Both the position numbers and the translations under genes were made by a program. Positions 3,001-27,390 of a DNA stretch of 28,649 nt are shown here, piece by piece. The DNA is from a virus: the IMG/VR virus record IMGVR_UViG_3300035659_003157, positions 1 through 28,649 of that record; one strand, given 5' to 3'. Position 1 is the stretch's first letter. Every line of letters starts with the position of its first letter. Below the pieces are notes generated by a model. It saw only the letters and a program-made list of their open reading frames with translations. It made no database searches and had not been told where the DNA came from.

Positions 3001-3675
3001 GTAAGGCCGCCCAGTCCGCTTCGCCTCGCGCAGAGTCTTGGCCAGTTTCTCAAAGGTCGGCGGGCGAAGCACCTCTAGTTGGAAGTCCGAACGAGCGTCG
3101 GCACTGAGCGTCTTGACCAGGCGGCTCGCCACGGATCGGAAAGGCACATCTTCGCGTTCCTTTGGTCTGCAAATGACCAAGAGGATGCGGGTGGGGCCGG
3201 ACTCGGTGGCGACAAGTCGCGGAGTTTCGACCGGTTGGTTGTGAGTGCGGACAAAGGCGAGGGCCCGTTGGGTCAGCACGGTGCCGGTGTACGGATCGCG
3301 GATCAACTCCCAGGGGATGGTCGTCGCCTCGCGCACGCTGGTGACGATCTCAACTCGGATATTGCTGAGCTGCTCGTACACTTTGCTCCAAAGGCGGCGG
3401 CTCTGCTCGTCGCTCTCGAACACTTTCTTAAACAGGTCGGTTCCGACTTCGGTGATGCGCTGTTCTACGCGGACGGCGATAGTGGGGGCGGGATCGTGGG
3501 GAAACTGCAGGTAATCTTCCAGGTACCAGCGCAGGTCTTCCTGATCCTGCGCGGTCATCTCAAAGAGGAAACGCGCGGTCGCAGTCTGGCGAAGGGGCCC
3601 GGGGCCCTCCAGCACGACCTCAGCGCGGTAGTGCCCGGCAGCGTCCGCGGACTGGATGATGCGTAACGTCGGCAT
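1..3675 (-). CDS. CHAT protease - NB-ARC ATPase - TPR protein
   Basis: A 1224-residue cytoplasmic protein that ends at the TGA complementary to bases 1-3. The N-terminal half is a CHAT (caspase-like) peptidase domain with the expected dyad: His233 in HFDGHG and Cys304 in LNACRS. An NB-ARC-type STAND NTPase follows, with Walker A AYAGSGKT (479-486), a Walker B-like LWIWDN (565-570), an SRRDERDW segment near 611 and the GNPL motif (667-670). The last third (about 870-1224) is alpha-helical with TPR-like repeats. In this class the TPR part is thought to sense a signal, the NTPase to oligomerise, and the CHAT domain to cleave a target; many such proteins act in conflict or antiphage defence. The frame stays open upstream to 4020, but ATG 3675 matches the usual N-terminus of CHAT proteins (MPTL...) and the upstream residues look noncoding. 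The Shine-Dalgarno is weak. It is transcribed away from the recombinase module. Substrate and trigger are unknown. Confidence 0.88.
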   Translation of the reverse strand: MPTLRIIQSADAAGHYRAEVVLEGPGPLRQTATARFLFEMTAQDQEDLRWYLEDYLQFPHDPAPTIAVRVEQRITEVGTDLFKKVFESDEQSRRLWSKVYEQLSNIRVEIVTSVREATTIPWELIRDPYTGTVLTQRALAFVRTHNQPVETPRLVATESGPTRILLVICRPKEREDVPFRSVASRLVKTLSADARSDFQLEVLRPPTFEKLAKTLREAKRTGRPYHVVHFDGHGMYAELADAKSAAQWLGSLVPLMLSGPRQGAHGYLLFESPGTKENLQLVDGESLGKLLRETDVPVLVLNACRSAHAEPPPQPKAAESSSELQAQVGAFGSLAQEVINKGVTGVVAMRYNVYVVTAAQFVADLYAALVQGASLGEAVTLGRKQLAANPERSIAYSPRRLQDWCVPIVYEALPTAIFPKPDDARRLSITIGAGGTSAEGGSLDSRLPKPPDVGFFGRDETLLALDRAFDTQQIVLLHAYAGSGKTATAAEFARWYSLTGGLGGGAYAVLFTSFEQYTTLPRVLDRIGEVFGPTLERSGVNWPALVDDAKRREVALQVLRQVPVLWIWDNVEPVAGFPKGTKSTWSGEEQRELVDFLRDARETKAKFLLISRRDERDWLGEDLPRRILVPPMPMQERVQLAKALAERHNRKLTDVDDWRPLLRFTEGNPLTITVLARQALRDGLTNREQIEAFVEKLRRGEAAFTDEADQGRSRSLGASLDYGFKTAFTDAERKQLACLHFFQAFVNVDALTRMGDPKKEWCLVDIRGVTREQWISLLDSAAEVGLLTVHGAGRYAIHPAVPWFFKTLFDKHYPAPLNPRPPTPNPQLGVARAFVEAMGDLGRYYIWQFREGNHAVISPLEAEKANLIYARQLARTHGWWDAVIGTMQGLNVLRYHRGWLAEWARLVDEIVPDFVDSATNGPVAGREEGWRLVTTYRVRLAQETRQWAEAERLLQAILNRSRERAAPALQSPPETLDDGRRDEIRWLAVDLQWLGGIVCEQDNPKCLSLSEEAYELFRRIGDNSGAGDAAFQLGTAYLDVTHIRNLEQAELWYQRSLELTDVRAPSAQSKCHMQLGAVALQRFDDAEAAKKPEAELLGFLNSALDSYSTALKTIPSDALDDLAVTHNQLGVIYRSTGATDRALSHYRDAIRYFEDGGDVYRAATVRSGVALALADAGRLADAREYALAALRNYETCGAGAAQKVEKTKQLIAVIEQDMAKGQSS

Positions 3676-4158
3676 ATTCGCTTCGCCCAACGATAGACCG
3701 TCCAAAATGGTCTTTGCGAAGTGGGCATCATACCGGCCATGCAGTCGGCCAAACAACTCCACAATCAGGGTGGGTTCGTGGTTCTTCACGCCCCGCGACC
3801 AATTTCGGGGGAGAAGGGGCCGGCGGACAGCCTTCCGGCAAACGGCGTAAGTAACGAGCAGACGAACAGCGTCCCTGGCGACGGCGTCGTCGAGATGGGG
3901 TCGCGGTTTGCGGAGTCTGCTCGTGAACGAAACGCACGAAGACGCCGGACTTTCGCCCTTTGAACGCCATCGCCAGGTCGCGGCGATCCTCGCCAGGGGC
4001 GTACTCCGGCTACGCCGCATTTATCAAACACGCGGCTTCGCACATGCTCCAGAATCTTTGCCGGATGGCCAGAATTGCCTTGAGTTCCCCGGCGAGACGA
4101 GGCTCAGTGTGGTCAACGGTACCCGCGGGTTCACGCCGCGGGACGACGGAGACGACGC
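3676..4158. other. Divergent intergenic region between CHAT gene and recombinase operon
   Basis: This 483-bp stretch separates the minus-strand CHAT gene from the plus-strand DUF2924 gene. The CHAT frame is open through most of it (to 4020), so a longer N-terminus cannot be excluded, although the predicted residues are arginine-rich and low in character. The one clear element is the inverted repeat at 4122-4142. I see no RNA gene and no convincing paired -35/-10 boxes. Confidence 0.4.
4122..4142. promoter_or_regulatory. Inverted repeat just upstream of DUF2924 start
   Basis: CCCGCGG at 4122-4128 pairs perfectly with CCGCGGG at 4136-4142 around a 7-nt loop, ending 16 nt before the ATG at 4159. 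It could be a hairpin in the leader of the recombinase operon or an operator. There is no T-tract, so it is not a typical terminator. Confidence 0.35.
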
Positions 4159-4653
4159 ATGAGCCTGAACATCGCCAAAGAGGTCGCGGCGCTCGAGCAG
4201 ATGACCGTCGGGCAGTTGCAGGATCGCTACGTGGAGGTGTTCGGCGAGACGGTCCGTAGTCGGCACCGGCAGTACCTGATCCGGCGTATTGCGTGGCGTC
4301 TCCAGGCCAACGCCGAGAGCGGCCTGACGGAGCGGGCGCTGCGTCGTGCCGAGGAACTCGCCGACGACGCGGACGTTCGCCTTGCGCCGCCACGGTGGGC
4401 AACCGTCGGAAGACAGGAACGGCCGGCCGAGGCGAATACGGTCCGCGTGCCCGTGACGACGGACCCGCGCCTACCGCCGCCGGGAGGGCAGATCACCCGC
4501 CGGTACAAGGGCCGCACGATCACCGTGACGGTCCTGGCGGACGGCTTCGAGTACCTGGGGGAGCGCTACCGGTCACTGACGGCGATCGCCAAGGCGATCA
4601 CCGGCTCGCACATGAACGGTTCCAGATTCTTCGGACTGGAGGGCAAGTCGTGA
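4159..4653 (+). CDS. DUF2924 family protein
   Basis: A 164-residue protein that I recognise as DUF2924. The helical N-terminal part (about 1-75) carries the characteristic LIRRIAWRLQ segment, and the C-terminal part (about 105-160) contains the RRYKGR and LTAIAKAITG segments typical of the family. The function is not established; members are repeatedly found directly before large serine recombinases in mobile elements of Alphaproteobacteria and Planctomycetota, so a role in integration, excision or DNA binding is a reasonable inference. The start is the first ATG after a GGAGAC sequence. Its stop overlaps the GTG start of the recombinase (GTGA, 4650-4653), which suggests translational coupling. 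Confidence 0.88.
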   Translation: MSLNIAKEVAALEQMTVGQLQDRYVEVFGETVRSRHRQYLIRRIAWRLQANAESGLTERALRRAEELADDADVRLAPPRWATVGRQERPAEANTVRVPVTTDPRLPPPGGQITRRYKGRTITVTVLADGFEYLGERYRSLTAIAKAITGSHMNGSRFFGLEGKS

Positions 4654-6293
4654 CCCAGCGCTTTGGCAACGCGAATGGCACGTCGAAGACGCCAGTAATT
4701 CGCTGCGCGATCTACACGCGGAAGAGCAGCGACGAGGGCCTCCAGCAGGAATTCAACTCACTTGACGCCCAGCGCGAAGCGGGCGACGCCTACGTTGCTA
4801 GCCAGAAGAACGAGGGCTGGGTTGCCCTGCCGGACCGCTACGACGACGGTGGCTACACTGGGGCGAACATGGATCGGCCCGCCCTGCGGCGACTGCTGAA
4901 GGACATTGAGGCCGGCCAGGCCGACTGCGTGGCGGTCTACAAGGTGGACCGCATCAGCCGGTCGCTGCTGGACTTCGCCCGCATGATGGAGACGTTCGAG
5001 AAGCACCAGGTCTCGTTCGTCTCCGTCACTCAGCACTTCAACACGGCTACGCCGATGGGGCGGCTGATCCTCAATATCCTGCTGTCGTTTGCCCAGTTTG
5101 AACGGGAGATCATCGGCGAGCGCATCCGCGACAAGATCGCGGCGTCGCGGCAGAAGGGCAAGTGGACCGGCGGCACGCCGATCCTCGGATACGATGTCGA
5201 CCGCCCCAACGGCAGCCCCAAGCTCGTCATCAACCCCGCCGAGGCCTCGCGGATCCTACAGATCTTCGAGATGTACCTCGAACTCGGCACGCTCCTGGGC
5301 GTCGTTGCCGAACTCGACCGTCGCGGCTGGCGGTCGAAGGTCTGGATGACTCGCGGCGGCAAGAGGCGCGGCGGTCTTCCGATCGACAAGTGCGGGCTTC
5401 ACAACCTTCTCACCAACGTGCTGTACGTCGGGAAGGTCCGGCACAAGAAGGAGGTGTACGCCGGCGAGCACGAGGCGATCGTCCCCGAGGACGTTTTCCG
5501 CCGCGTCCAAGCCCGGCTCCAACAGAACCGAAACGCCAGCAGCATCGAGCTGCGCAACCGCTACGGGGCGCTCCTGCGCCGGCTCCTGTATTGCAAGGCG
5601 TGCGGTCGCGTGATGGTCCACACGTTCGCCAGTCGCGGCAACAAACGTTACCGCTACTACACCTGCACGAACGCCATCAAGAATGGCCGCCGCAAGTGCC
5701 CGACTGCGTCGCTCCCGGCTGGTGAGATCGAGAAGGCCGTCGTTGACCAGATTCGTTGCATCGGCCAGGACGTTGACCTGCTTGGCGAGACGCTACGGCA
5801 GACTCGTTCCCAGACCGAGGAGGCGCTCGCGCGCCTGACGCGCGAGCGGCGGATCATCGAACGCGGCCTCGCCCGTTGCCACGCCGAGATACGTCGCACG
5901 GCCACGTCCGAGCCGGCCACAAGTGCCGCAACGGGCCGTATCGCCGACCTGACCGATCAGATCGGCCAGTCGGAGCGCCGGTTGACCGAGGTCGATGGCC
6001 AGATCGCCGAGTTGCGACGCGACCTGGTGACCGAGGCCGACATCGCCGCGGCGTTCGCCGACTTCGACAACATCTGGACGGCCCTCAGCCCGCGCGAGCA
6101 AGTGCGGTTGATTAACCTGCTGGTGCATCGCGTGGAGTTCGACGCCGCCGAAAGCAGCATCGAGGTCTCGTTCTACCCGTCGGGGATCAAATCGTTGGCG
6201 AACGGCGCCGATGATCCTGCCCCGACCGAGACGAAACCTCCTGTCGAGCGTGCCGGGAAGCGTCCTCGGGCCGTGAAGGAAGCGGCCGCATGA
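4650..6293 (+). CDS. Large serine recombinase (site-specific integrase)
   Basis: A 547-residue resolvase/invertase-family recombinase. The N-terminal catalytic domain has the IYTRKSS motif, with Ser26 as probable nucleophile, and the YKVDRISR segment with conserved Arg101 and Arg104. A 'recombinase' domain (about 175-290) is followed by a zinc ribbon with Cys315, Cys318, Cys339 and Cys350, and then a long coiled-coil region (about 375-460) typical of large serine integrases. Such enzymes join attP and attB sites without host factors. The frame is open upstream to 4293, but the GTG at 4650, overlapping the preceding stop, gives the correct N-terminus; the longer version would be antisense-like sequence over DUF2924. 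It ends in an ATGA overlap with the next gene. All catalytic residues I can check are present, so it is probably active and may be the integrase of this island. Confidence 0.93.
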   Translation: MTQRFGNANGTSKTPVIRCAIYTRKSSDEGLQQEFNSLDAQREAGDAYVASQKNEGWVALPDRYDDGGYTGANMDRPALRRLLKDIEAGQADCVAVYKVDRISRSLLDFARMMETFEKHQVSFVSVTQHFNTATPMGRLILNILLSFAQFEREIIGERIRDKIAASRQKGKWTGGTPILGYDVDRPNGSPKLVINPAEASRILQIFEMYLELGTLLGVVAELDRRGWRSKVWMTRGGKRRGGLPIDKCGLHNLLTNVLYVGKVRHKKEVYAGEHEAIVPEDVFRRVQARLQQNRNASSIELRNRYGALLRRLLYCKACGRVMVHTFASRGNKRYRYYTCTNAIKNGRRKCPTASLPAGEIEKAVVDQIRCIGQDVDLLGETLRQTRSQTEEALARLTRERRIIERGLARCHAEIRRTATSEPATSAATGRIADLTDQIGQSERRLTEVDGQIAELRRDLVTEADIAAAFADFDNIWTALSPREQVRLINLLVHRVEFDAAESSIEVSFYPSGIKSLANGADDPAPTETKPPVERAGKRPRAVKEAAA

Positions 6294-6691
6294 TCACCGT
6301 CAGACGCAAGGTCTATTTCGTCCGCCGCGACCACGGTCGCAAGACCATCGCCGACGCGCCGCGGCCGACCGACCAAGCCGAGCCCGGGCGCATTCCTCGG
6401 ATTGCACGTTTGATGGCTCTGGCCATCCGCTTCGACCGTCTGGTCCGCGAGGAAAAGGTGACGGACCTGTCCGAACTGGCCCGCCTCGCCCACGTCACGC
6501 AGCCCCGCATGACCCAGATCATGAACCTGACCCACCTCGCGCCGGACATTCAGGCGAAACTGCTGTTCCTGCCAAAGGTTACGATCGGTCGTGATCCCAT
6601 CCATGAGCGGATCTTGCGGCCGATCGTGGCAACGGTCCGCTGGGACACCCAACGGCGAATGTGGTTCAGCCTGAACCACCCGCCGCGTTAA
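6290..6691 (+). CDS. Small HTH-like protein downstream of the recombinase
   Basis: A 133-residue basic protein whose start overlaps the recombinase stop (ATGA, 6290-6293). A central segment (about residues 45-85), running from LMALAIRFDRL through VTDLSELARLAHVTQPRMTQIMNLTHL, has the pattern of a helix-turn-helix, with VTQPRMTQIM as a likely recognition helix. The C-terminal part ends in RRMWFSLNH. I know similar small proteins beside DUF2924/recombinase pairs but no established function. Tight coupling to the recombinase makes a recombination directionality factor or a regulator of the integrase plausible; this is inference from position. A transcription terminator is not obvious after it. 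Confidence 0.75.
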   Translation: MITVRRKVYFVRRDHGRKTIADAPRPTDQAEPGRIPRIARLMALAIRFDRLVREEKVTDLSELARLAHVTQPRMTQIMNLTHLAPDIQAKLLFLPKVTIGRDPIHERILRPIVATVRWDTQRRMWFSLNHPPR

Positions 6692-6774
6692 CATGCCCGT
6701 GGAGACCCCGCCGGCCGCTACGACATACGCGTGGCCTCAATCAGTGCTCGGCTGCGACCCAAGCTCAGCGCGGG

Positions 6775-6802
6775 TTGCATCGCCTGACCGGCGGGTTATC
6801 AT
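6775..6802 (+). promoter_or_regulatory. Candidate sigma-70 promoter of the hsd operon
   Basis: TTGCAT (6775-6780) and TATCAT (6797-6802) are separated by 16 nt and lie about 60 nt before the hsdM start. The -10 box matches 5 of 6 consensus positions and the -35 only 3 of 6. It is the best pair in the gap between the recombinase trio and hsdM. Confidence 0.35.
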
Positions 6803-6860
6803 CGTACACTGTTTGGTGAACGAGGACAATAGTTCCGGCGCCCCAGTGGGCGAGAGACGA

Positions 6861-7922
6861 ATGGCCCAGCTCGAAAACATCGAAGCCATTGAAAAGCGGC
6901 TCTGGAACGCGGCGGACACGCTGCGCGCCAACTCCAACTACGCCAGCAACGAGTACTTCATGCCCGTTATGGGCCTGATCTTCCTGCGCCACGCGTTCAG
7001 CCGCTTTCTCGCGGTCAAGGCGGACATCGAGGGCAAGCTGCCGAAGCGCGGCGGAAAGACCCGCGACCTCGCCAAGGAGGACTTCTCGCAACGGACCGCG
7101 ATCTTCCTGCGCCCCAAGGCTCAGTTCGACTACCTCGTCTCTCTCACCGACCGCGACGACCGCGCGCAGGCGATCATGCGGGCGATGGACTCCATCGAGG
7201 CCGACTACGAGGGCCTGCGCGGCGTCCTGCCCAAGTCGGAATACCAGGAGCTCGACAACACCGTCCTCGGCCAGCTTCTCCGCACACTGAATCCGGAGGA
7301 ACTCAAACGGGTCTCCGGCGATGTGTTCGGCCGCATCTACGAGTACTTCCTGACGCAGTTCGCCGACCAGAAGGCCCACGACAACGGTGAGTTCTTCACG
7401 CCGGTCTCGCTGGTCGCGCTCATCGCCAACGTGATCGAGCCGACCGCAGGGACCGTTCTCGACCCCGCGTGCGGCTCCGGCGGCATGTTCGTGCAGAGCG
7501 CGCATTTCGTCGAGCGGATGCACCAGAACCCCGCGGAGAAGCTGACGTTCCGCGGGATCGAGAAGAACGCCACGACGATCCGGCTCGCCAAGATGAACCT
7601 CGCCGTACACGGCCTTGAGGGCGACATTCAGAAGGCGATCACATACTACGAGGACCCGCACGAGTTGCTCAGCAAGGCCGACTACGTGATGGCCAATCCG
7701 CCGTTCAACGTCGACGAGGTCGACGCGGAGAAGGTGAAGAACGACCCGCGCCTGCCGTTCGGCCTGCCGGGTGTGAATAAGGCCAAGAAGGTCTCGAACG
7801 GCAACTACCTGTGGATCAGCTACTTCTACAGCTACCTGAACGCGAGGGCCGGGCCGGATTCGTCATGTCCAGCCAGGCATCCAGCGCCGGCCACGGCGAG
7901 AAGGACGTACGCCGGAAGATAG
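6861..7922 (+). CDS. hsdM: Type I restriction-modification DNA methyltransferase, N-terminal part (frameshifted)
   Basis: The M subunit methylates adenine at N6 in the sequence chosen by HsdS and is needed for both modification and restriction. This fragment has the HsdM N-terminal helical domain (about 1-150), the SAM-binding motif DPACGSGG (201-208) and the catalytic NPPF motif (279-282). The ATG at 6861 begins MAQLENIEAIEKRLW, a normal HsdM N-terminus; the frame is open back to 6693 but without family similarity. Homology stops after Asn327 (7839-7841) and resumes in another frame at 7847, so the last 26 residues of this reading frame are out of frame. As written the protein would lack the C-terminal third; if the missing base is a sequencing error the full protein is about 704 residues. 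Confidence 0.9.
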   Translation: MAQLENIEAIEKRLWNAADTLRANSNYASNEYFMPVMGLIFLRHAFSRFLAVKADIEGKLPKRGGKTRDLAKEDFSQRTAIFLRPKAQFDYLVSLTDRDDRAQAIMRAMDSIEADYEGLRGVLPKSEYQELDNTVLGQLLRTLNPEELKRVSGDVFGRIYEYFLTQFADQKAHDNGEFFTPVSLVALIANVIEPTAGTVLDPACGSGGMFVQSAHFVERMHQNPAEKLTFRGIEKNATTIRLAKMNLAVHGLEGDIQKAITYYEDPHELLSKADYVMANPPFNVDEVDAEKVKNDPRLPFGLPGVNKAKKVSNGNYLWISYFYSYLNARAGPDSSCPARHPAPATARRTYAGR

Positions 7923-8974
7923 TAGAGACCGGCGACATCGACGTGATGATCGCCATCCGCCCGAACTTCTTCTACACGCGCACGGTCCCGTGCGAACTGT
8001 GGTTCTTCGACCGGGGTCGGCCGAAGAATCGGCGCGACCGCGTGCTGATGCTCGACGCGCGGAACGTCTACCGCAAGGTCACACGGAAGATCTTTGACTT
8101 CGCGCCGGAGCAACTGGCGAACCTCACGGCCATCGTGGCGCTTTACCGCGGCGAGTCAAAGCGGTTCGTCGCACTGATCCGGGACTACTTGGCCGCGACC
8201 TGCACAGAGGCGGCCAACGTGCCCGAGGCCCTAGCCCCGTTCGACGCGGTGGCAGGCGCGGCCGGCGATCAGCTCGCCGCGATCACGAAAGCCACGAAGG
8301 GGATCAAGGGCATCGACGCCGCCAAGCACGAGGCACTGGCCGACGCGCTGAAGGAGTTGTCGGAGGCCACGGCCGCCTACGCCGGCGATCGCGACAAGCT
8401 GCTGGCGGCGCTGAAGCGATTCCGCGCCGCCTACTGTGACAAGCTGCCGGCGGACAACAAAGCCCAGCACAAGACCCGGAAGGCCTTCGAGCCACTTGCG
8501 GAGGAGCTGCGCGGCCTCGTGAAACAGGCGGACCTGATCTGCAAGGTCGCGGGCCGCGCCCGCGATGCAGCCCATGCGCTGGCGGACGACGAGGCTGCCG
8601 CCCAGCACGTCGATCGACGCGGGTTGTCGAAGACGATGAAGGAGTTGGACGAGGCGCGGCGGGTTGCCGTCGAGCAGTTGAAGGATGCCGGTTACTTCCA
8701 CAAGCAGGTTGTCTGGCTTCAGGACCGCTTCCCCGACGCCGAGTTGGTCCCAGTGCCGGGGCTGGTGAAGGTCGTGGACCGGGGCGAGATCGAGGGCGCC
8801 GACTGGTCGCTCACGCCCGGTCGGTACGTCGGCGTCGCACCGCCGGAGCCTGACGAGGACTTCGACTTCGAGGAGGCGATCCGCGACATCCATGTGGAGA
8901 TTGCCGGACTGAACGATGAAGCCGCCGAGCTCGCGAAGACGATCCAGGCAAACTTCGAGGAGCTCGGCGTATGA
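7811..8974 (+). CDS. hsdM: Type I restriction-modification DNA methyltransferase, C-terminal part (frameshifted)
   Basis: The continuation of hsdM in a different frame. Family-like sequence starts at 7847 with GRAGFVMSSQASSAGHGE and passes through FFYTRTVPCELWFFDR, the conserved stretch after the NPPF motif. It then runs through a long helical region (about 8100-8700) to a C-terminus rich in acidic residues. The first dozen residues from ATG 7811 are out-of-frame sequence; ATG 7865 is the other possible internal start, and neither has a clear Shine-Dalgarno. On its own this piece has no SAM or catalytic motif. The stop overlaps hsdS in ATGA (8971-8974), the normal arrangement of an intact hsd operon, so the operon was functional recently or the frameshift is an artefact. 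Confidence 0.88.
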   Translation: MDQLLLQLPEREGRAGFVMSSQASSAGHGEKDVRRKIVETGDIDVMIAIRPNFFYTRTVPCELWFFDRGRPKNRRDRVLMLDARNVYRKVTRKIFDFAPEQLANLTAIVALYRGESKRFVALIRDYLAATCTEAANVPEALAPFDAVAGAAGDQLAAITKATKGIKGIDAAKHEALADALKELSEATAAYAGDRDKLLAALKRFRAAYCDKLPADNKAQHKTRKAFEPLAEELRGLVKQADLICKVAGRARDAAHALADDEAAAQHVDRRGLSKTMKELDEARRVAVEQLKDAGYFHKQVVWLQDRFPDAELVPVPGLVKVVDRGEIEGADWSLTPGRYVGVAPPEPDEDFDFEEAIRDIHVEIAGLNDEAAELAKTIQANFEELGV

Positions 8975-13325: not shown

Positions 13326-13688
13326 ATGACGGATCGACAAAAGACATTCGGACAAGTACTCCGCGCGCGACGGATTGCCAAGGGGTACAGCCTGCGCAAG
13401 TTCGCCGAACTGGTCGATGTGAGCCCGACGTATTTGTCGCAGGTTGAACGGGACAAGGTCGAATCGCCGCCGACGGTGGAGCGACTCAACCGGATGGCGG
13501 ACGTGCTCGGCGAGAGCCGCGACGAGTTCGTCTCGTTCGCCGGCCGCGTTCCGGAGGACCTGCCGCGGATTATTCAGAGCCGCCCGGACAAGTTTCCAGA
13601 ACTTCTTCGGACCACCAAGGGGCTTAAGCCTGACCAGTTGCGCGAACTGATCGAACGAGCCAAGGAGATGAAGAAGAAGGAAGACTGA
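13326..13688 (+). CDS. XRE-family transcriptional regulator
   Basis: A 120-residue protein with an N-terminal Cro/CI-type helix-turn-helix (about 8-64). The core SLRKFAELVDVSPTYLSQVER shows the usual pattern with YLSQVE as the end of the recognition helix. The rest is a charged helical tail ending in KKKED. A good Shine-Dalgarno (AAAGGCGAGG) precedes the ATG. It lies 30 nt after hsdR and overlaps the next gene by one base (TGATG), so it probably shares a transcript with both. XRE plus ImmA/IrrE pairs are well known as repressor plus repressor-cleaving protease, and also as toxin-antitoxin-like modules. This protein is the expected DNA-binding partner and possible autoregulator. Confidence 0.9.
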   Translation: MTDRQKTFGQVLRARRIAKGYSLRKFAELVDVSPTYLSQVERDKVESPPTVERLNRMADVLGESRDEFVSFAGRVPEDLPRIIQSRPDKFPELLRTTKGLKPDQLRELIERAKEMKKKED

Positions 13689-14404
13689 TGGCCAGAACGA
13701 GTTCGACATTGTTGCGCGATGGGGTGCCGTTTCTCCGAGAGAAACAGATGGAGGCCGAAGCCCAATTGCTGCTTGAGGAATACGCGCAGGCTCCCGACTG
13801 GCGGATTGCCGCGCCGGTTCCCGTCGAGGAAATCATCGAGCTGCATCTAAAACTCGCATTCGCAATCGAAGACCTGCGGGCGCTTCTGTCGGTTGACGAC
13901 GTTCTCGGCGCGATCTGGTTTACCGAGAAAGAGGTGCGAGTTGACGTCCGCCTCGACCCATCAGCGAATCCGTCTTCACTCAGCCGCTACAGGTTTACGC
14001 TCGCCCACGAAGCCGGCCATTGGCGGCTTCATCGGCAGTACTATCAGGAGGATCGGAATCAGGGCAAACTGTTCGACGGCCGGGGGCAACCGGCGTTCAT
14101 CTGTCGATCCTCGATGAAGCCGCCGGCCGAGTGGCAAGCGGATTTCTTCGCCGGCTGCATGTTGATGCCACGCAATGTCGTGCGGTCCGCATGGCAGGAT
14201 TGGCGTGGCAATCTCGATCCAGTTGCCGTGCAGCAGCTTCCGGCCGTTACGATCAGCACTGATTCAAAGGAGAATGAGAATGCTACACTGGAGAGATTCT
14301 GCCGTTCGCTCGCTGGCCAGTTCGAGGTATCCGCGGAGGCCATGCGTATACGGCTGGAGAATCTTGGATTCCTACTCCGCGAGGTACCCAACACGCTGTT
14401 CTGA
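13688..14404 (+). CDS. ImmA/IrrE-type metallopeptidase
   Basis: A 238-residue protein of the COG2856 type. The zinc motif HEAGH (107-111) lies after a stretch of beta-strand character, and Glu148 in AEWQADFFA is the probable third ligand, followed by the typical CMLMP segment. In characterised systems (ImmA of ICEBs1, IrrE/DdrO pairs) such peptidases cleave an XRE repressor after a DNA damage or mobility signal. The gene starts on the A of the XRE stop (TGATG), so translation is coupled. The partner is almost certainly the XRE protein just upstream; what the pair controls could be the hsd operon, the two unknown genes downstream, or itself. All motif residues are present and no truncation is visible. 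Confidence 0.9.
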   Translation: MARTSSTLLRDGVPFLREKQMEAEAQLLLEEYAQAPDWRIAAPVPVEEIIELHLKLAFAIEDLRALLSVDDVLGAIWFTEKEVRVDVRLDPSANPSSLSRYRFTLAHEAGHWRLHRQYYQEDRNQGKLFDGRGQPAFICRSSMKPPAEWQADFFAGCMLMPRNVVRSAWQDWRGNLDPVAVQQLPAVTISTDSKENENATLERFCRSLAGQFEVSAEAMRIRLENLGFLLREVPNTLF

Positions 14405-14495: not shown

Positions 14496-15674
14496 ATGGC
14501 GAAACCGTTTGATCCCCGGAAGATGCTGAGGCAGATTTCCAATGCACTATTGCGCGAGTTCTTCGAGCAGCGCGGCGAACTGGGTGACGTGCCGTGGAAC
14601 GAGCTCACTGAGACGAAGATCGAACCGATCTTCGAGGCTTGGCAGGCGCTGCCGGATGGGAAATGCAAAGAGGTCCAAGTGGTCCTGCACGACATTAACG
14701 AGCTGGCGGATGAGCGCGGCCTCAGCGTTCTGGCGGAGGAGATCGGCTGGCGTTCCCCGGAGCGGATGCATGAGTTCACCGCACTGGAGGGCCGCGCCGA
14801 CCGTGCGATGTGGGTGTATCTCAATGCACACAGCGCGTTCACCGAGGCTGCGCTCTTCGCGCGGGCTGACGCGCTGGAAGCGGGTCGGTACTGGGTCAAG
14901 CGCAGCTGCCTACCGAGTCAGCCGGTCACCTTCAACGACCAAGTGCGCGATGCGCTGCAGGCCGCGCTCAGCGAGTTCTACTGGCCGACGCAGTTGCGAG
15001 GCCGCCATTGCTCAGTCGACCACTACGCGCGGGCCAACGGCGCGGAGTATTTCTTCGCCTACCTGGACGACTACCCGGATGCGCACGTGGTCTTTGATGA
15101 CAGTGGCAACGTCGTCAAGCGGACGGACCGCTATGCGTTCCAAAATGTGTTCGTGTTCAGCCCGGCGGATGGATCGCTGGACCTGTTCGCTCGCGGCGGA
15201 AACAAGGTCTGCACGGCGCTGCAGCAGGCGTTTTGCCGCGCCGTGCTGGGAATCGATGTCGGCCCCGAGGATCCGCTGCGACCCGCCTACCAACTCGATC
15301 ACGTGCTCGACCCGAATTGTCCGCTTCCAACTGAGCCTGGAGAGCAGATCGCCGAAGTCCGCATCACGCGAATGCGGTTGGAATCGCGTGACGCGCCCGG
15401 ACGCTACATCGAGGTGAAGGCGAACCCGAAAGGGCCGTGTGATGACATCTACCAGATGATCCAACACGATCTGAACCACCATAGCGTGGCACCGTCGCGG
15501 GTGCGCGTGCGCCAAGCCGGATTTCGGCTGTTGTTCATGAGCGAGAGTGGCGCGAAACCCAAAACGCTCGGCTTCAACGTGAGCTGTCCGAATTCGTGTG
15601 GCCTGAAGAGCAAGCCCGACGAGATGCGCGCCATCGGCGAACGGTGCCTGCGATCATGGAGGGTCACGCCGTGA
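14496..15674 (+). CDS. Unknown protein, first gene of a coupled pair (392 aa)
   Basis: I do not recognise this protein. It has 392 residues, no signal peptide and no membrane segment. Features visible: a helical, acidic N-terminal half (about 1-165), then a mixed alpha/beta part with an aromatic-rich stretch (AEYFFAYLDDYPDAHVVF, 183-200), a segment GRYIEVKANPKGPCDD (302-317) and a histidine-rich QHDLNHHS (323-330). A C-terminal cysteine group follows (Cys364, Cys368, Cys384) that might bind metal. A strong Shine-Dalgarno (AAGGAGA, 14481-14487) lies 8 nt before the ATG. The stop overlaps the GTG start of the next gene, so the two products are probably made together and may act as a complex. 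Its place right behind a restriction system and an XRE-ImmA pair suggests a defence or mobile-element role; this is inference only. Confidence 0.85.
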   Translation: MAKPFDPRKMLRQISNALLREFFEQRGELGDVPWNELTETKIEPIFEAWQALPDGKCKEVQVVLHDINELADERGLSVLAEEIGWRSPERMHEFTALEGRADRAMWVYLNAHSAFTEAALFARADALEAGRYWVKRSCLPSQPVTFNDQVRDALQAALSEFYWPTQLRGRHCSVDHYARANGAEYFFAYLDDYPDAHVVFDDSGNVVKRTDRYAFQNVFVFSPADGSLDLFARGGNKVCTALQQAFCRAVLGIDVGPEDPLRPAYQLDHVLDPNCPLPTEPGEQIAEVRITRMRLESRDAPGRYIEVKANPKGPCDDIYQMIQHDLNHHSVAPSRVRVRQAGFRLLFMSESGAKPKTLGFNVSCPNSCGLKSKPDEMRAIGERCLRSWRVTP

Positions 15675-16654
15675 CTAATCCGCTTGACATCATCTGGCCG
15701 AGCGTCGATTCGTCGAGGCCGCGCTTCACGGCGGACGAGGTGCGAGGATGGCCGATAGCCTTCACAAAGCGTCTGACGGCTCGCCGCCTCCTCATACGCG
15801 CCGAGTCGTCGGATCACGTTGTATGCCCAGCCTGTGGGGATCGCCACGTCGAGGAGGTCATCCCCCGCAAAGGCCGCGATGGTCGCGTGCGCTTTTTCAT
15901 CCGTTGCCCGGAAGCACTGCGCGTCGAAGTGCCCGAGGAGAGCGTGGTTCAGTGGACGATTGACTTCGACGCCGTGGCCCGCGCAATCGCCGGTAGCATG
16001 TCGCTGCAGGGTCGTTGCACATTGATCGTCCCAGGTCGCCTCTGGCGGTTGGGACGTGACTCCTGGCGGGGCGCTTCGCGCGGCATCGTGTTCGTGCGGG
16101 GCTTGCAATGGCCGGACGGCAAGCAACTCGCCGACCGAATCGGCACGCATGGACGGACCATCGTGTTGATCGCCGAACATGTACCGCCGCCGGAGTTCTG
16201 GGCGGGCCTTCCGCCGCCAACCGTTGCGCTGACCGGCATCACGACACTCGGGGAGTCCGGCATCGAACTTGATCGGGCGTATGTCGCAGCCCTTGTTGAA
16301 CAGGTGGACGCGACGAATCGGGCGATCCAGCCCGTGGCGCTCACGCCACAACAACAGAAGAAGCTGTTCCGTCAGCAGGCGGCGACAGTTCTGAAGTCTT
16401 ATCTGAAAGACGACGAACTCATCGACGCCTACAGGCAATACGGCTCGTCCCGAAAAGCAGCTGTAGCCCTGAGCAAGAAGCACGGCGTCAAGATCTCCAA
16501 GGATGCGGTTGCGCGGGCCGTGCAGAAACGCGGCGGTCCCGACGTCGTGAAATCCGATCACGATAGTTGCTCGGTCCGTCGCACCGTCGCGTCGCAACGC
16601 CGCGACAGGAAAAAGAGTTTCGCTGCACCGTCGGAACCTCCTGGATCTGAATGA
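15671..16654 (+). CDS. Unknown protein with CxxC motif and C-terminal HTH-like segment (327 aa)
   Basis: Not recognised as a known family. The N-terminal part contains CPACGDRH (52-59) and a further Cys79, which looks like a zinc-ribbon fragment. A central domain (about 95-215) includes strand-rich stretches and HGRTIVLIAEHVPPP. The C-terminal third has a coiled segment (LTPQQQKKLFRQQA) and then a segment with helix-turn-helix character, DELIDAYRQYGSSRKAAVAL to KDAVARAVQKRG. The tail is basic. The GTG at 15671 was chosen because GGAGGG lies 7 nt upstream and the start overlaps the preceding stop; an in-frame ATG at 15656 is the alternative. A DNA- or RNA-binding partner for the 392-residue protein is the simplest reading. 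Confidence 0.82.
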   Translation: MTNPLDIIWPSVDSSRPRFTADEVRGWPIAFTKRLTARRLLIRAESSDHVVCPACGDRHVEEVIPRKGRDGRVRFFIRCPEALRVEVPEESVVQWTIDFDAVARAIAGSMSLQGRCTLIVPGRLWRLGRDSWRGASRGIVFVRGLQWPDGKQLADRIGTHGRTIVLIAEHVPPPEFWAGLPPPTVALTGITTLGESGIELDRAYVAALVEQVDATNRAIQPVALTPQQQKKLFRQQAATVLKSYLKDDELIDAYRQYGSSRKAAVALSKKHGVKISKDAVARAVQKRGGPDVVKSDHDSCSVRRTVASQRRDRKKSFAAPSEPPGSE

Positions 16655-16866
16655 CTTGCGCCGCCGTTCTGGCGGTGCGCTGCTTCATCTTCGCGTGCCC
16701 AAACCGCGACACCGCGGCGGGCGGGTGTAGGCCGTGAGGCCATAACCCGCCAGTCACCAGTCGCGCCTGTGCCGGCAGTTGCGGCGTGCGCCGCAGCACA
16801 GAGATTCCCTGCGCGCAACTGAGCTGACCCTTCGCGGGCAGATGCCTCCGACCGCCGGAGGCGTCG
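16655..16866 (+). promoter_or_regulatory. Hairpin-rich leader upstream of the sigma-like gene
   Basis: Four inverted repeats lie in 212 nt. Hairpin 1: 16658-16665 with 16671-16678 (8 bp, one G-U, 5-nt loop), four bases after the preceding stop. Hairpin 2: GGCGGGT (16720-16726) with ACCCGCC (16745-16751), enclosing a GGCC/GGCC stem. Hairpin 3: CTGTGC (16767-16772) with GCACAG (16796-16801), enclosing TGCGGCG/CGCCGCA (16780-16795). Hairpin 4: GCCTCCG (16844-16850) with CGGAGGC (16856-16862), which contains the GGAGG ribosome binding site of the gene starting at 16867. This may be a cis-acting RNA controlling translation; the first hairpin may instead end the upstream transcript. Confidence 0.5.
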
Positions 16867-17451
16867 ATGGGCCCCACACCCGCCCGCGATGCGGTCCTGA
16901 CCGCATACGCACGGTCGCTGATTCGATTCAAAGCCAAACAACTCGCGAGGAAGCCCGGATTCACGAGGTCCGATCAGGAAGACCTGGAACAAGAGCTGAT
17001 AGCGCACCTGCTCGCCCGGGCGCACCACTTCGATCCGAAGCGCGGGTCGGCGAACACGTTCGCTGCACGCGTCATCAAGTCTGCCATCGCCATGCTCCTG
17101 CGAGACCGTCATCGCCAGAAACGCGCCGCCGGCTTCACGGCGCAGTCGCTCGAGGGGACCCGCACTCGATCGGCCGAGGAGGTCGAGTCGCTACGCGACA
17201 TGCTCACGGAAGCGGACCTCCGGCGGCGGATCGGCACGGGGGCCTGCGACCAGGACCGGGCCGAACTGATCACGGCGGTCGGCCAGGCATTTCAATCGCT
17301 GCCGCCGGACCTGCAGGACCTCTGCCGACGGCTGATCGAAGGTACCGCGGCCTCGCTCGCCCGCGAGTTGGGCATCTCTCGCCGACAGGTCCGCAATGCA
17401 ATCGAGCGTATCCGCCTCCACTTTGAGGCTGCCGGTCTCGGAGATTTCTGA
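16867..17451 (+). CDS. Sigma-70 family RNA polymerase sigma factor-like protein
   Basis: A 194-residue protein with the layout of a small sigma factor. Region 2-like sequence (about 10-85) includes DQEDLEQELIAHLL and FDPKRGSANTFAARVIKSA, resembling the core-binding and -10 recognition helices. After a linker, region 4-like sequence (about 135-190) includes LPPDLQDLCRRL and a helix-turn-helix in ASLARELGISRRQVRNAIER. Such short sigma factors occur in phages and mobile elements of this kind, where they may direct transcription of the element's own genes. Its ATG is 4 nt after a hairpin that covers the ribosome binding site, so translation is probably regulated. The next gene follows after 75 nt on the same strand. 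Confidence 0.82.
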   Translation: MGPTPARDAVLTAYARSLIRFKAKQLARKPGFTRSDQEDLEQELIAHLLARAHHFDPKRGSANTFAARVIKSAIAMLLRDRHRQKRAAGFTAQSLEGTRTRSAEEVESLRDMLTEADLRRRIGTGACDQDRAELITAVGQAFQSLPPDLQDLCRRLIEGTAASLARELGISRRQVRNAIERIRLHFEAAGLGDF

Positions 17452-17526: not shown

Positions 17527-17841
17527 ATGACAGCGAATGCCTTCCGATTCGAGTTCGAGCCCCTGGTGTCCCTGGAGTCCGCGGAGTTGTCGCTGCACTT
17601 GGCGATGTACGCCGTCGAAGGGTTGTACGGCGAGGCCCGCGTTCGGCTCGACACAAGCTACCACCTCGACGAGGCGCGGCGGTCGATCACTGTGGATGGC
17701 GGCACGGAAGTTGGTGCGGCCATCGTCAAGGTCTTCACGCGGCTCCTGACTCGCGAATTCGGCGAAGACGGGTTCCGCGTGCGCCGCGCCGACAAGTGCT
17801 GCGCACCGGCGGAAGAGGAGGCCCAACGCGCCTATGCCTGA
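17527..17841 (+). CDS. Small unknown protein preceding the replication gene (104 aa)
   Basis: A 104-residue acidic protein with no domain I can name. It shows an N-terminal FRFEFEPLVSLESAELSLHL segment, a central LDEARRSITVDGG and an alternating alpha/beta character; no membrane segment. ATG 17527 was chosen because GGAGAG lies just upstream; a GTG at 17515 would add four residues. The stop overlaps the start of the primase-helicase gene by 8 nt, so the two are translationally coupled and it is likely an accessory replication or element protein. Confidence 0.72.
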   Translation: MTANAFRFEFEPLVSLESAELSLHLAMYAVEGLYGEARVRLDTSYHLDEARRSITVDGGTEVGAAIVKVFTRLLTREFGEDGFRVRRADKCCAPAEEEAQRAYA

Positions 17842-20413
17842 ATCCGTCGCCGCTACCGATCTGGACGTCGTCGCGCGGACCGTACCGGTCTGCTTGCGGG
17901 AGCGCGCCCAGTGGGTCTGCTGGAGGTACGTCGAGCGCGACGGCAAGCAGACCAAGTTCCCGATCAGCCCGACGAAGGGCGGGTCGGCGTCGTCCACCGA
18001 TCCGGCGACGTGGGGCACGTTTCAACAGGCGATCGCGGCTTGTCAGCGCTGTATCGATCTGGCGGGCATTGGGTTCGTGTTCACCGCGGATGATCCGTTC
18101 GCCGGCATCGACCTCGACAACTGCCTCGATGCTGCAACGCGCGAACTGAAGCCGTGGGCGCGGCCAATCCTCGATCAGCTCGACAGCTACAGCGAGATCA
18201 GTCCCTCGGGCGCTGGCGTGAAGATCTTCGTCCGTGCCCGCAAGAGGGGCCAGCGCTGCAAGACCGGCTATCAGGACGGCGCGATCGAGATGTACGACCG
18301 CGATCGGTTTTTCACCATTACCGGCCAGCGTCTGGCGGATACCCCCACGGACGTGGAGGAGCGACAGCCACAGTACGACGCGGTGTACGAGCTTCTTTTC
18401 GGCGGCGGCGATGCGCCCCAGCCCGGGTGGCCTATGGCGCGGGCGACGGCGTCCGACGACGACCGCTCGCATCTTGACGACGACGACGTAATCAGGATCG
18501 CCCTACGCAGCAAGAAGTCGGGCGAGAAATTCAAGGCCCTATGGGAGGGCCGATGGCAGGAGCATTTCGGCTCGCAGAGTGAGGCGGACGCGTCGCTTGT
18601 CTTCCGCCTTGCGTTCTATACGAAGGACGCGGCCCAGATCGACCGGCTGTTCCGTCGCTCAGGCCTCATGCGCGACAAATGGGACGAGAAACATGGTGCG
18701 CAGATGTACGGCGAAATGACCGTCGCCGGCGCCTTGGAAAAGGTGACATCACAGTACGTTGCGCGGAACGCCGCGATGTGCGGGCGGGTCGCAGCAAGAG
18801 TGCGCGGCGAGGCTTCTCTGCCGGAGATTATCATCACGGATGTCCAACTCCGCGAATTGACCGAACTCGCTGTTGACGCCCTAGGCAAGTCAAACGATCC
18901 ACCGGCCCTGTTCGTGCGATCGGGATCGCTCGTCCGAATCACCAAGGACGAGAAACATGTCCCGAAAATCGAGACGCTCGAACGTGTTCGCATGCGATCC
19001 CGCCTGTCCGACGTCGCCAACTTCTACGCCTTGAAGCGATCCGGGGATGCGGTCTATCAGGTCTCCGTCGCCCCGCCGTTACCCTTGGCCGAGAACATCC
19101 TTGTGCAGGGCACCTGGCCCTTTCCTCCGCTCGCTGGCCTCGCCCGTGCGCCGATCGTCAGGCCAGACGGCACGCTGTGCATGATGCCGGGTTACGACGC
19201 CCAGACCCGGCTGCTTTACGCTCCCGATCCCGACCTAAAGCTCTTGGCGATCCCGGAGCTCCCGAACATCCACGAGGTCCACGCTTGCGTCGAGATACTG
19301 TTGACGGTCATCGACGATTTCCCATTTGCCGATCAGGCGAGCAAGGCCAACGCCCTTTCGATCCTTTTCTCCGTCCTCCTGCGGTCAGTCATCAGGGGCC
19401 ACATCCCGCTGGCGATTTTCGATGCACCGGTCCAAGGAACGGGGAAGACGCTACTCGTTTCCGTCCTGGTCTGGATTGCCGTCGGGAGCATCGCGAGCGA
19501 GTCCGTTCCGTCGAAGCTCAACGACGATGAATGGCGTAAGAAGATTACCTCTGTCCTGATGACCTCCGCCCCCGTCATCCTGCTCGATAACGTTCCCGAC
19601 AACACCGCGATCGATTCACCCGCCCTGGCGGCGGCGCTCACGAGTCATGAATGGTCCGATCGCTTGCTCGGGAAGAACGAGACTATCCGCCTCCCCTCGA
19701 AGGCCATCTGGATCACAACCGGCAACAACCTCCGCGTTGCCGGCGACATGCCGCGGCGCTGCTATGCAATTCGTCTAGATGCACAGGCTGAACGGCCCTG
19801 GGAACGCAACGGCTTCCGAATCGCCGATCTTGAGGCCTACGTCCGCGAGAAGCGAGGCGAACTGCTGTCCGCTGCTCTCACCGTCATCCGTGGGTGGTTT
19901 TCGGCGCAATGCCCGCGGGTCAACATGCGCCCGTTCGGTAGTTTCGATGAATGGGCGGGCGTGGTCGGCAGCGTGCTGGGCTACGCCGGCATTAACGGAT
20001 TCCTCGACAACCTCGACCAGACGCGCTCCGTGCAGGACGAGGACAACCGGCAGTGGGGGGCGGTCTTCGATGCCTGGTGGAATCGGTTTGGAGAACACAT
20101 CGTCACCGTCGCCCAACTCTTCGCGGCATTCTTCGCCGAGGACGTCGCCGACCCAATCGACATCCCCGAGATCTTGCTGGGTCAAAAGGACCGCGGCGAA
20201 GGCTCGTTGCGGCGGTCGCTGGGGAGACAACTCTCCCGCCTGACGGGGCGCATCTTCGATGGACGGAAACTGTGCGACGCGGGCGGCGATTCGCACTCCA
20301 AGGTGCGTGCATGGTCGCTGCGACCTGTCCATGCGGGCCAAACTGAGGGGGCAAACCCCGCAGACCCCGCACTTTGCGGGGTTAGTTTCCAAGAAACCCC
20401 GCAACAGAAGTGA
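17834..20413 (+). CDS. PrimPol-like primase fused to AAA+ helicase (phage/plasmid replication protein)
   Basis: An 859-residue two-part replication protein. The N-terminal part (about 15-190) resembles an archaeo-eukaryotic primase/polymerase: WVCWRY, the probable metal-binding GIDLDNC (91-97, Asp93 and Asp95), SPSGAGVKIFV (123-133) and RFFTITG (158-164). A middle segment (about 215-300), DDDDVIRIALRS to YGEMTVAGALEKV, matches the helical domain seen after the primase in NrS-1-type phage polymerases. The C-terminal part is a P-loop ATPase with Walker A APVQGTGKT (531-539) and Walker B-like PVILLDNV (580-587), probably a replicative helicase. The likely role is priming and unwinding at the element's own origin. 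The conserved His of the usual SxH primase motif is Lys130 here, which also occurs in relatives as far as I recall. Repeats at its 3' end may belong to an origin. Confidence 0.87.
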   Translation: MPESVAATDLDVVARTVPVCLRERAQWVCWRYVERDGKQTKFPISPTKGGSASSTDPATWGTFQQAIAACQRCIDLAGIGFVFTADDPFAGIDLDNCLDAATRELKPWARPILDQLDSYSEISPSGAGVKIFVRARKRGQRCKTGYQDGAIEMYDRDRFFTITGQRLADTPTDVEERQPQYDAVYELLFGGGDAPQPGWPMARATASDDDRSHLDDDDVIRIALRSKKSGEKFKALWEGRWQEHFGSQSEADASLVFRLAFYTKDAAQIDRLFRRSGLMRDKWDEKHGAQMYGEMTVAGALEKVTSQYVARNAAMCGRVAARVRGEASLPEIIITDVQLRELTELAVDALGKSNDPPALFVRSGSLVRITKDEKHVPKIETLERVRMRSRLSDVANFYALKRSGDAVYQVSVAPPLPLAENILVQGTWPFPPLAGLARAPIVRPDGTLCMMPGYDAQTRLLYAPDPDLKLLAIPELPNIHEVHACVEILLTVIDDFPFADQASKANALSILFSVLLRSVIRGHIPLAIFDAPVQGTGKTLLVSVLVWIAVGSIASESVPSKLNDDEWRKKITSVLMTSAPVILLDNVPDNTAIDSPALAAALTSHEWSDRLLGKNETIRLPSKAIWITTGNNLRVAGDMPRRCYAIRLDAQAERPWERNGFRIADLEAYVREKRGELLSAALTVIRGWFSAQCPRVNMRPFGSFDEWAGVVGSVLGYAGINGFLDNLDQTRSVQDEDNRQWGAVFDAWWNRFGEHIVTVAQLFAAFFAEDVADPIDIPEILLGQKDRGEGSLRRSLGRQLSRLTGRIFDGRKLCDAGGDSHSKVRAWSLRPVHAGQTEGANPADPALCGVSFQETPQQK

Positions 20414-23575: not shown

Positions 23576-23941
23576 TCAGGCTCCCGCCTTGTTGAACGCG
23601 AACAGCCCGCGATCGACCTTGGAGAAGCGCGAGGCGGTTCCCTTATCGCGCGCCTCGCGCATCATGGCGGCGTAGAGCGTGGCGTGCGGGGTCTTGCCGC
23701 CGGGACTCTTCCACAAGCCCTGCTCGGCCATCGCCGCGATCAGTTCCTGGGCCCGCATGGGCTTCTCCGCTTTGGCCAGGACCTCCGCGGCGGCGTCGAG
23801 GGCACTGACCCGTTTGGGCTTCTTCTCGCCGGTCGCCTTCTTGGCCTTCTTGGTCGGAGCCTTGGTCTTGACGACCGCCGCCTTCACCTCGGCCTTGGCG
23901 GCGGCCTTCTTCCTCGACTTCCTCTTTTTCGTCGTACTCAT
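23576..23941 (-). CDS. HARE-HTH domain protein with lysine-rich tail
   Basis: A 121-residue protein. Residues 1-45 are a lysine/alanine-rich, histone-like tail starting MSTTKKRKSRKK. Residues 46-120 form a HARE-HTH domain (as in RpoE delta and ASXL proteins), with SALDAAAEVLAKAEKPMRAQ, a GLWKSPGGKTPHATLYAAMM core and a C-terminal FSKVDRGLFAFN strand. It is probably a nucleoid-associated or regulatory DNA-binding protein. ATG 23941 was chosen because a strong Shine-Dalgarno (AAGGAGATG) precedes it on the minus strand; the frame is open 16 codons further but without support. It leads a minus-strand pair inside an otherwise plus-strand region, which suggests a cargo or regulatory insertion. Confidence 0.87.
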   Translation of the reverse strand: MSTTKKRKSRKKAAAKAEVKAAVVKTKAPTKKAKKATGEKKPKRVSALDAAAEVLAKAEKPMRAQELIAAMAEQGLWKSPGGKTPHATLYAAMMREARDKGTASRFSKVDRGLFAFNKAGA

Positions 23942-24105
23942 AGGACATCTCCTTGGGTTAGAAACCACCGCGTCAACGCAACGCGGCATTGTTCACGTCC
24001 CCATGAGGGCAAGTCTCGGCGAACACATCAAGGGAAAAACCCCTGGAATTCCCGGCGATTTATCAGCTTTCTGCGGGCATTCGGTGACGCCGAATGGAGC
24101 GCGGC

Positions 24106-26783: not shown

Positions 26784-27390
26784 ATGGTTGTAAATGAACG
26801 AATAGGCCCGCGGCGTCTGCCGCCCGAAGTTCTCACCGACGCCGAGGTCTGCGCGCTCATGCGCGTGTGGCCGCTACGCGCCGGCCGGACTACGCAACCG
26901 GGCACTGATCGCCTTGCTCTACCACACCGGACTGCGCATCAACGAAGCCCTAAGCCTCTATCCCAAGGACCTCGAATTGGCCGACGGCAGCGTTCGCGTG
27001 CTCCACGGCAAAGGCGGGCGATCCCGCACCGTCGGTCTGGACCCCGGCGCCGCCGCCATCATCGAGCGCTGGTTGGACGCGCGCTCCCGCCTCGGCCTGG
27101 GCGGCCGGAATCCCGTGTTCTGCACGCTCCGCGGTCACCGAATGTCCGACGCCTACGTCCGGGTCATGCTCAAACGCCTCGCCGCCCGGGCGGGCATCGA
27201 CAAGCGCGTCCACGCCCACGGACTCCGCCACACCCACGCCGCCCAACTCCGCGCCGAAGGCGTCGACATCGCCATCATCTCCTGCCAACTCGGCCACGCC
27301 AGCATCACCACCACCGCGCGCTGCCTCGACCACCTCGCCCCAAGAGCGGTCATCGAAGCGATGCGTGGTCGAAGCTGGACGGGAGCGTAG
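26784..27390 (+). pseudogene. Minimal tyrosine recombinase, frameshifted and lacking the nucleophile
   Basis: A catalytic-domain-only tyrosine recombinase of about 200 residues with no N-terminal SAM-like domain. It starts at ATG 26784 (RRLPPEVLTDAEVCALMR). Near 26864-26870 the frame changes by one base, and the family sequence resumes as CGRYAPAGLRNRALIALLYH in the frame that ends at 27390. Catalytic Arg (TGLRINEAL), HGLRH and LGHAS motifs are visible, but the tyrosine expected in TTARYLDH is Cys (TGC at 27322-27324). Two independent defects argue for a dead gene rather than one sequencing error. The tail REAMRGRSW-like end is normal. It may once have mobilised the neighbouring repeats. Confidence 0.85.

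Follow-up and report, generated by a model that had tools for sequence, protein, structure and literature searches.

Are two overlapping genes that lie behind a restriction-modification (R-M) operon part of a defence system, or do they belong to the core of the element that carries them? The question is raised by a virus record of 28,649 nucleotides (IMG/VR record IMGVR_UViG_3300035659_003157), here called the window, which is probably a fragment. The preliminary description of this DNA reported two ORFs of 392 and 327 amino acids coupled by a GTGA. Their places and sizes and the GTGA itself were all recovered among the window ORFs, here named P1 and P2:

14496-15674, + strand: P1, 392 amino acids; matches PHROG 37634 (unknown function); putative obligate partner of P2
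15671-16654, + strand: P2, 327 amino acids; GTG start; no database family
15671-15674, + strand: GTGA shared by the stop of P1 and the start of P2

The start of P2 overlaps the stop of P1 by 1-14 bases in almost all relatives, and because nearly all of them place the two within a few bases of each other the overlap is no accident. Neither protein has a Pfam match above cut-off or any NCBIfam match. The claim that they match no family holds for P2, which also lacks a match in the PHROGs profile search, and for P1 in Pfam, NCBIfam and PADLOC, but in PHROGs P1 is covered over its full length (residues 5-391, E 5.4e-40) by PHROG 37634.

Pattern and profile searches of IMG/VR contigs and GTDB genomes yielded relatives at more than 60 loci. 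Most come from Phycisphaerae MAGs; a few are labelled Nevskiales, Cyanobacteria, Streptosporangiaceae or Hyphomicrobiaceae, and some of the odd labels may be binning errors. Among the sampled genomes the P1 profile was found in 32 of 399 Pseudomonadota (about 8%) and 15 of 294 Planctomycetota (about 5%). Neighbourhoods were counted in 60 non-redundant loci, mainly from these two phyla, and a P2 detected by HMM directly adjoins P1 in 50 of them. Locus L138 has an overlapping gene of a size matching P2 next to P1, and a distant pair is present on the Ca. Tenderia plasmid CP013100, where P1' is about 21% identical to P1.

The pair also occurs as a natural fusion. At loci L142 and L143 a single ORF (724 and 721 amino acids, respectively) covers both P1 and P2, and its second half matches the P2 family (hhalign E 5e-7). 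Searches of phage records with P1 or P2 individually (tblastn) gave no matches; a further fusion, gp6 of AcaML1, a temperate phage of Acidithiobacillus caldus (PMC3826726), was reached by profile comparison only. This protein is recognised by both the P1 HMM (2e-29) and the P2 HMM (2.7e-13), and its consecutive parts align with P1 and P2 (hhalign 7e-17 and 7e-8). Thirteen other, neighbouring AcaML1 proteins served as negative controls and did not match P1 or P2; gp6 alone also matches PHROG 37634 (E 6.9e-10). P1-P2 is thus a real, widespread and tightly linked pair, of which AcaML1 gp6 offers a single-protein form for study.

The surroundings of the pair follow a recurring order: a DUF2924 gene, a serine recombinase gene and a gene for a 133-amino-acid protein, then in many cases XRE and M78 genes, P1, P2, often a sigma factor gene, and finally replication and recombination genes (Sak4-type AAA_24 ATPase, DUF669, DUF3799 exonuclease, RusA, helicase, primase). 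In the window this order is represented by:

4159-4653, + strand: DUF2924 protein of the integration module
4293-6293, + strand: large serine recombinase; ORF as listed, the true start is probably inside
6290-6691, + strand: third protein of the integration module, 133 amino acids; phrog_14161, recombinase
13326-13688, + strand: XRE repressor-like protein (CapH-like)
13688-14404, + strand: ImmA/IrrE-like M78 metalloprotease (CapP-like)
16867-17451, + strand: sigma-70/ECF-like sigma factor, downstream partner in the Planctomycetota branch
17834-20413, + strand: primase-helicase with an NrS-1 polymerase-type domain, first of the replication genes

An integrase or a phage recombination or replication gene lies no more than 10 kb from P1 in 55 of the 60 loci. 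The nearest recognised downstream gene is on the strand of P1 in all 51 loci that have one, and is a sigma factor (30 loci), a Sak4-type ATPase (13), a primase (4), DUF2924 (2), an exonuclease (1) or XRE (1). XRE/M78 genes are found within 3 kb of P1 in only about 37 of the 60 loci. The integrase type, the R-M system, XRE/M78 and the replication genes all vary between elements, whereas the pair and its leading position in the early operon are constant over all element types. The early genes of many temperate phages, and of mobile elements related to them, are headed by P1-P2.

Some further features of these regions were observed. Portal (PF04860) and HK97-type capsid (PF05065) genes were not found in searches of 11 virus records. 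At the left of the window (1-4020, - strand) the integration module is adjoined by the gene of a 1339-amino-acid CHAT-protease/AAA/TPR protein, possibly an immune or death-type protein of the host or a neighbour. Near the right end of the element there are a HARE-HTH protein (23576-23989, - strand) and a tyrosine-integrase fragment (26914-27390, + strand), the serine recombinase being at the left. The Sak4-type AAA_24 ATPase at L064 (7593-9428, 611 amino acids) appears to be interrupted at the Walker A motif by an intein (PKLGK followed by CLGGDTLV). Upstream of P1 in L056 and L070 there is no XRE gene; its place is taken by an M78-like protein of a different kind and a second sigma-like factor, both encoded on the opposite strand, which make up an alternative switch region.

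The preliminary description suggested an undescribed defence or regulatory system, and one possible reading is that the pair defends against phages and travels as cargo next to R-M genes. R-M genes are indeed found within 10 kb of P1 in 24 of the 60 loci. Locus L148 (1-10035) has P1-P2 between a type III R-M gene (Res), a DUF4357 protein and an AAA_13 protein with no recognised phage genes, and is the only locus with R-M alone. On the Ca. Tenderia plasmid (L005, 9978-13484) the distant pair is directly upstream of multi-ubiquitin, JAB and E1 (ThiF) genes. The arrangement resembles that in which known controllers lie next to their pathways, and would suit a regulator as well. Against a defence role, neither protein matched any PADLOC defence family up to E 1, and the pair has a core position in a temperate phage, AcaML1. 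The same P1-P2 core is also present at loci with no recognised R-M genes, among others L063, L064 and L131-L137; in L063 and L064 the 133-amino-acid protein is followed by P1 with no R-M genes in between.

Co-inheritance gives the same picture. Pairwise P1 distances follow P2 distances (rho 0.87) but not those of the R-M subunits (rho 0.01 and -0.13); these rank correlations are descriptive, as locus pairs are not independent and the alignments are automatic. Among close relatives the correlation with P1 is 0.80 for P2, 0.72 for sigma, 0.38 for XRE, 0.29 for M78, 0.22 for Sak4, 0.06 for DUF669, -0.16 for the recombinase and about 0 for R-M. These values indicate that P1-P2, with sigma where present, is one inherited unit and that R-M genes are exchanged independently. 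The R-M type varies between loci, and the R-M genes beside P1-P2 are exchangeable cargo. An accessory role of the pair for the neighbouring R-M system was rejected on the grounds of this independent inheritance and of the limited number of loci with R-M. Defence by P1-P2 itself is quite unlikely. The earlier proposal was staked beforehand on homologues occurring as pairs near mobile and defence genes; they are paired and lie near mobile genes, with R-M at fewer than half of the loci. What stands of it is an undescribed and regulatory system, not a defensive one. A core phage gene had been taken for a defence gene since R-M cargo was inserted beside it, a natural error that can now be corrected. 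The window's own hsdM is divided between two overlapping ORFs (6693-7922 and 7811-8974). This points to a frameshift or an assembly error, and the R-M system here may therefore be broken.

P2 consists of an N-terminal zinc module, a central alpha/beta domain, a C-terminal HTH and a basic tail, and its structure was predicted with a mean pLDDT of 84. Two of its parts are important for the interpretation:

15824-15907, + strand: codons of P2 C52, C55, H59 and C79, a putative zinc site
16343-16552, + strand: C-terminal helical (HTH-like) part of P2, replaced by other winged-helix-like domains in relatives

The CxxC zinc-like motif pointed out earlier belongs to the set C52, C55, H59 and C79, which is invariant in an alignment of 27 P2 proteins; the distant Tenderia P2' lacks these ligands. 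The HTH-like C-terminus described earlier is borne out by helices in the predicted structure, but the match to HTH_50 (E 0.0085) is below cut-off, as is that to Zn_ribbon_19 (E 0.065), and P2 thus has no curated DNA-binding domain among the families searched. The C-terminal HTH carries a conserved tail, DSxSVxRxVASQxRDR. By our own reading of the sequences, the C-terminus is a different winged-helix-like domain followed by a coil in L064, L066, L067 and L071-L073, and yet another domain in the Tenderia P2'. Such an exchange would fit element-specific DNA recognition. The pI of P2 in the window is 9.9 and the median of its relatives is 7.7, so a basic pI is not general. For the fold of P2, neither PDB nor viral structures gave a match below E 0.02 (best Foldseek match 0.04).

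P1 was predicted with a pLDDT of 84 and a pTM of 0.62, and its conserved residues include no set marking an enzyme. The histidine-rich stretch noted earlier (HDLNHH) occurs in the window and its closest relative alone, and the GERCL cysteine is the sole one near the C-terminus that is commonly conserved. A metal site formed by the histidines and cysteines of P1 was rejected for lack of conservation, and lectin matches in PDB were taken as chance because they cover a short local motif at 219-238. In Foldseek searches of PDB with the P1 model, CENP-N/Chl4 of the inner kinetochore constitutes all top eight matches (best E 2.4e-3, TM 0.21-0.37 with high rmsd), above the background seen for P2. The apparent likeness is that of an alpha/beta domain preceded by a helical domain at the N-terminus; CENP-N itself is built of a pyrin domain and a CLN homology domain, with a C-terminus that binds CENP-L (PMC5777823). 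Pfam CENP-N (PF05238) has no match up to E 10 in 10 genomes and records including the window, and hhalign of P1 against human CENP-N and yeast Chl4 is no better than shuffled controls, so that homology has no support from sequence. The resemblance of the predicted fold is a lead, not an assignment. That P1 is a phage relative of CENP-N, acting with a zinc/HTH partner at a control or origin site of the element, is highly improbable; if true, the DNA/nucleosome-binding architecture of the kinetochore would have a bacteriophage cousin.

In the sigma-containing branch P2 is separated from the sigma gene by 180-230 nt, mostly 215-222, and the gap encodes a structured RNA:

16655-16866, + strand: structured RNA in the P2-sigma gap, modelled core 16701-16804
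16843-16864, + strand: hairpin containing the GGAGG ribosome-binding site of the sigma gene

Folding of the window copy gives a z of -3.2. For the 28-pair structure 87% of cells pair, falling to 30-43% in slid versions, but the structure was drawn with the same sequences in view and these percentages lean towards it. The double changes are stronger evidence: 15 of the 28 pairs have changed on both sides (8.3 +/- 1.4 in shuffles, 0 of 500 as high), and a tighter alignment with 23 pairs gives the same outcome. A covariance model built from 27 copies locates the RNA immediately after P2 in loci that were not used for training (L144, L162, L164, L020, L063, L064, L071, L072 and L034). With reduced-sensitivity filters it was detected in only 4 of 199 Planctomycetota genomes, each with P1-P2, and no copy was detected in the Pseudomonadota loci that were searched. 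Rfam gave only sub-threshold matches at E <= 10, and no tRNA identity was found for the gap. The RNA is a previously unlisted structure of the Planctomycetota branch, supported by covariation. Because the GGAGG ahead of the sigma start codon is paired in its last hairpin, the RNA may control the translation of sigma, although some copies (L004 type) lack pairing over the GGAGG. It is a candidate for a new riboregulator acting on a phage sigma factor.

The contrast between constant and variable features fits a DNA-binding complex of the element core better than defence, R-M support or a factor for one recombinase. We consider it about an even chance that P1 and P2 form an obligate complex that regulates or initiates the early programme. 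The complex would be the first product once the early operon is on and would act on the element's own DNA. While the element is integrated, the XRE repressor would silence the region, and by analogy with CapH/CapP and PprI/DdrO, DNA damage would activate the M78 protease to remove it. Adjacency suggests that this switch controls P1-P2. The pair would then be translated together, the exchangeable C-terminal domain of P2 binding element-specific sites and P1 acting as its structural and DNA-gripping partner. The complex would switch on downstream early genes, joined in the Planctomycetota branch by the sigma factor, whose translation would be gated by the RNA leader, and the element would thereby be committed to recombination and replication. 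Of this scheme, the pairing and coupling of the genes, their fusion, position and co-inheritance, the conservation of the metal ligands and the structure of the RNA are observed, and the formation of a complex, its binding to DNA and its regulatory action are inferred. A search for repeats, operator-like sites and iterons near P1 gave nothing convincing.

A role as replication initiator, in which P2 recognises the origin and P1 helps to load the primase-helicase, is unlikely. The replication/recombination operon always begins with the pair, these operons have no other recognised initiator, and a primase directly follows in L129, L130, L147 and L149, which have tyrosine integrases and no Sak4-type genes. 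However, the distances of P1 among close relatives follow those of sigma but not those of Sak4 or DUF669, and no iterons were found near P1. It is mainly this indirect evidence of co-inheritance that favours regulation over initiation. Excision, with P1-P2 as a directionality factor or recombinase accessory, is very unlikely. A recombinase is found within 10 kb in 29 of the 60 loci, DUF2924 and the recombinase follow the pair in L132 and L133, and the AcaML1 fusion shares an operon with an excisionase, DUF2924 and both recombinase genes. Yet elements with tyrosine integrases also carry the pair, the distances of P1 do not follow those of the recombinase among close relatives, and the pair usually runs away from the recombinase and into the early genes.

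Comparison with known systems sets the pair apart. PHROG 37634, which P1, AcaML1 gp6 and the Tenderia P1' all match, describes P1 only and gives no function; P2, the fusion and the operon position are outside it. Gp6 of AcaML1 resembles the pair in the window in having P1 followed by P2 beside DUF2924 and a related serine recombinase (48% identical to that of L131), and differs in being fused. It is about 24% identical to the other fusions, is annotated as hypothetical and is located in a leftward excisionase-recombinase operon. In the PprI/DdrO system DNA damage activates an M78 protease and the repressor is removed. The window XRE protein matches capH (E 4.6e-10) and the M78 protein, which carries an HEAGH motif, matches capP (E 1.6e-17) in PADLOC; CapP is activated by ssDNA and cleaves CapH (PMC13373217). 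No part of ImmR/ImmA, CapH/CapP or PprI/DdrO is matched by P1 or P2, and XRE/M78 genes of this type are a frequent but not constant neighbour of the pair. In phage WO the two hypothetical genes of WO-PC1 have a related serine recombinase on one side and the replication module on the other (PMC9203015), a likeness of position. P1-P2 is an undescribed module at the head of the early operon, and its function would show how many serine-recombinase phages leave lysogeny.
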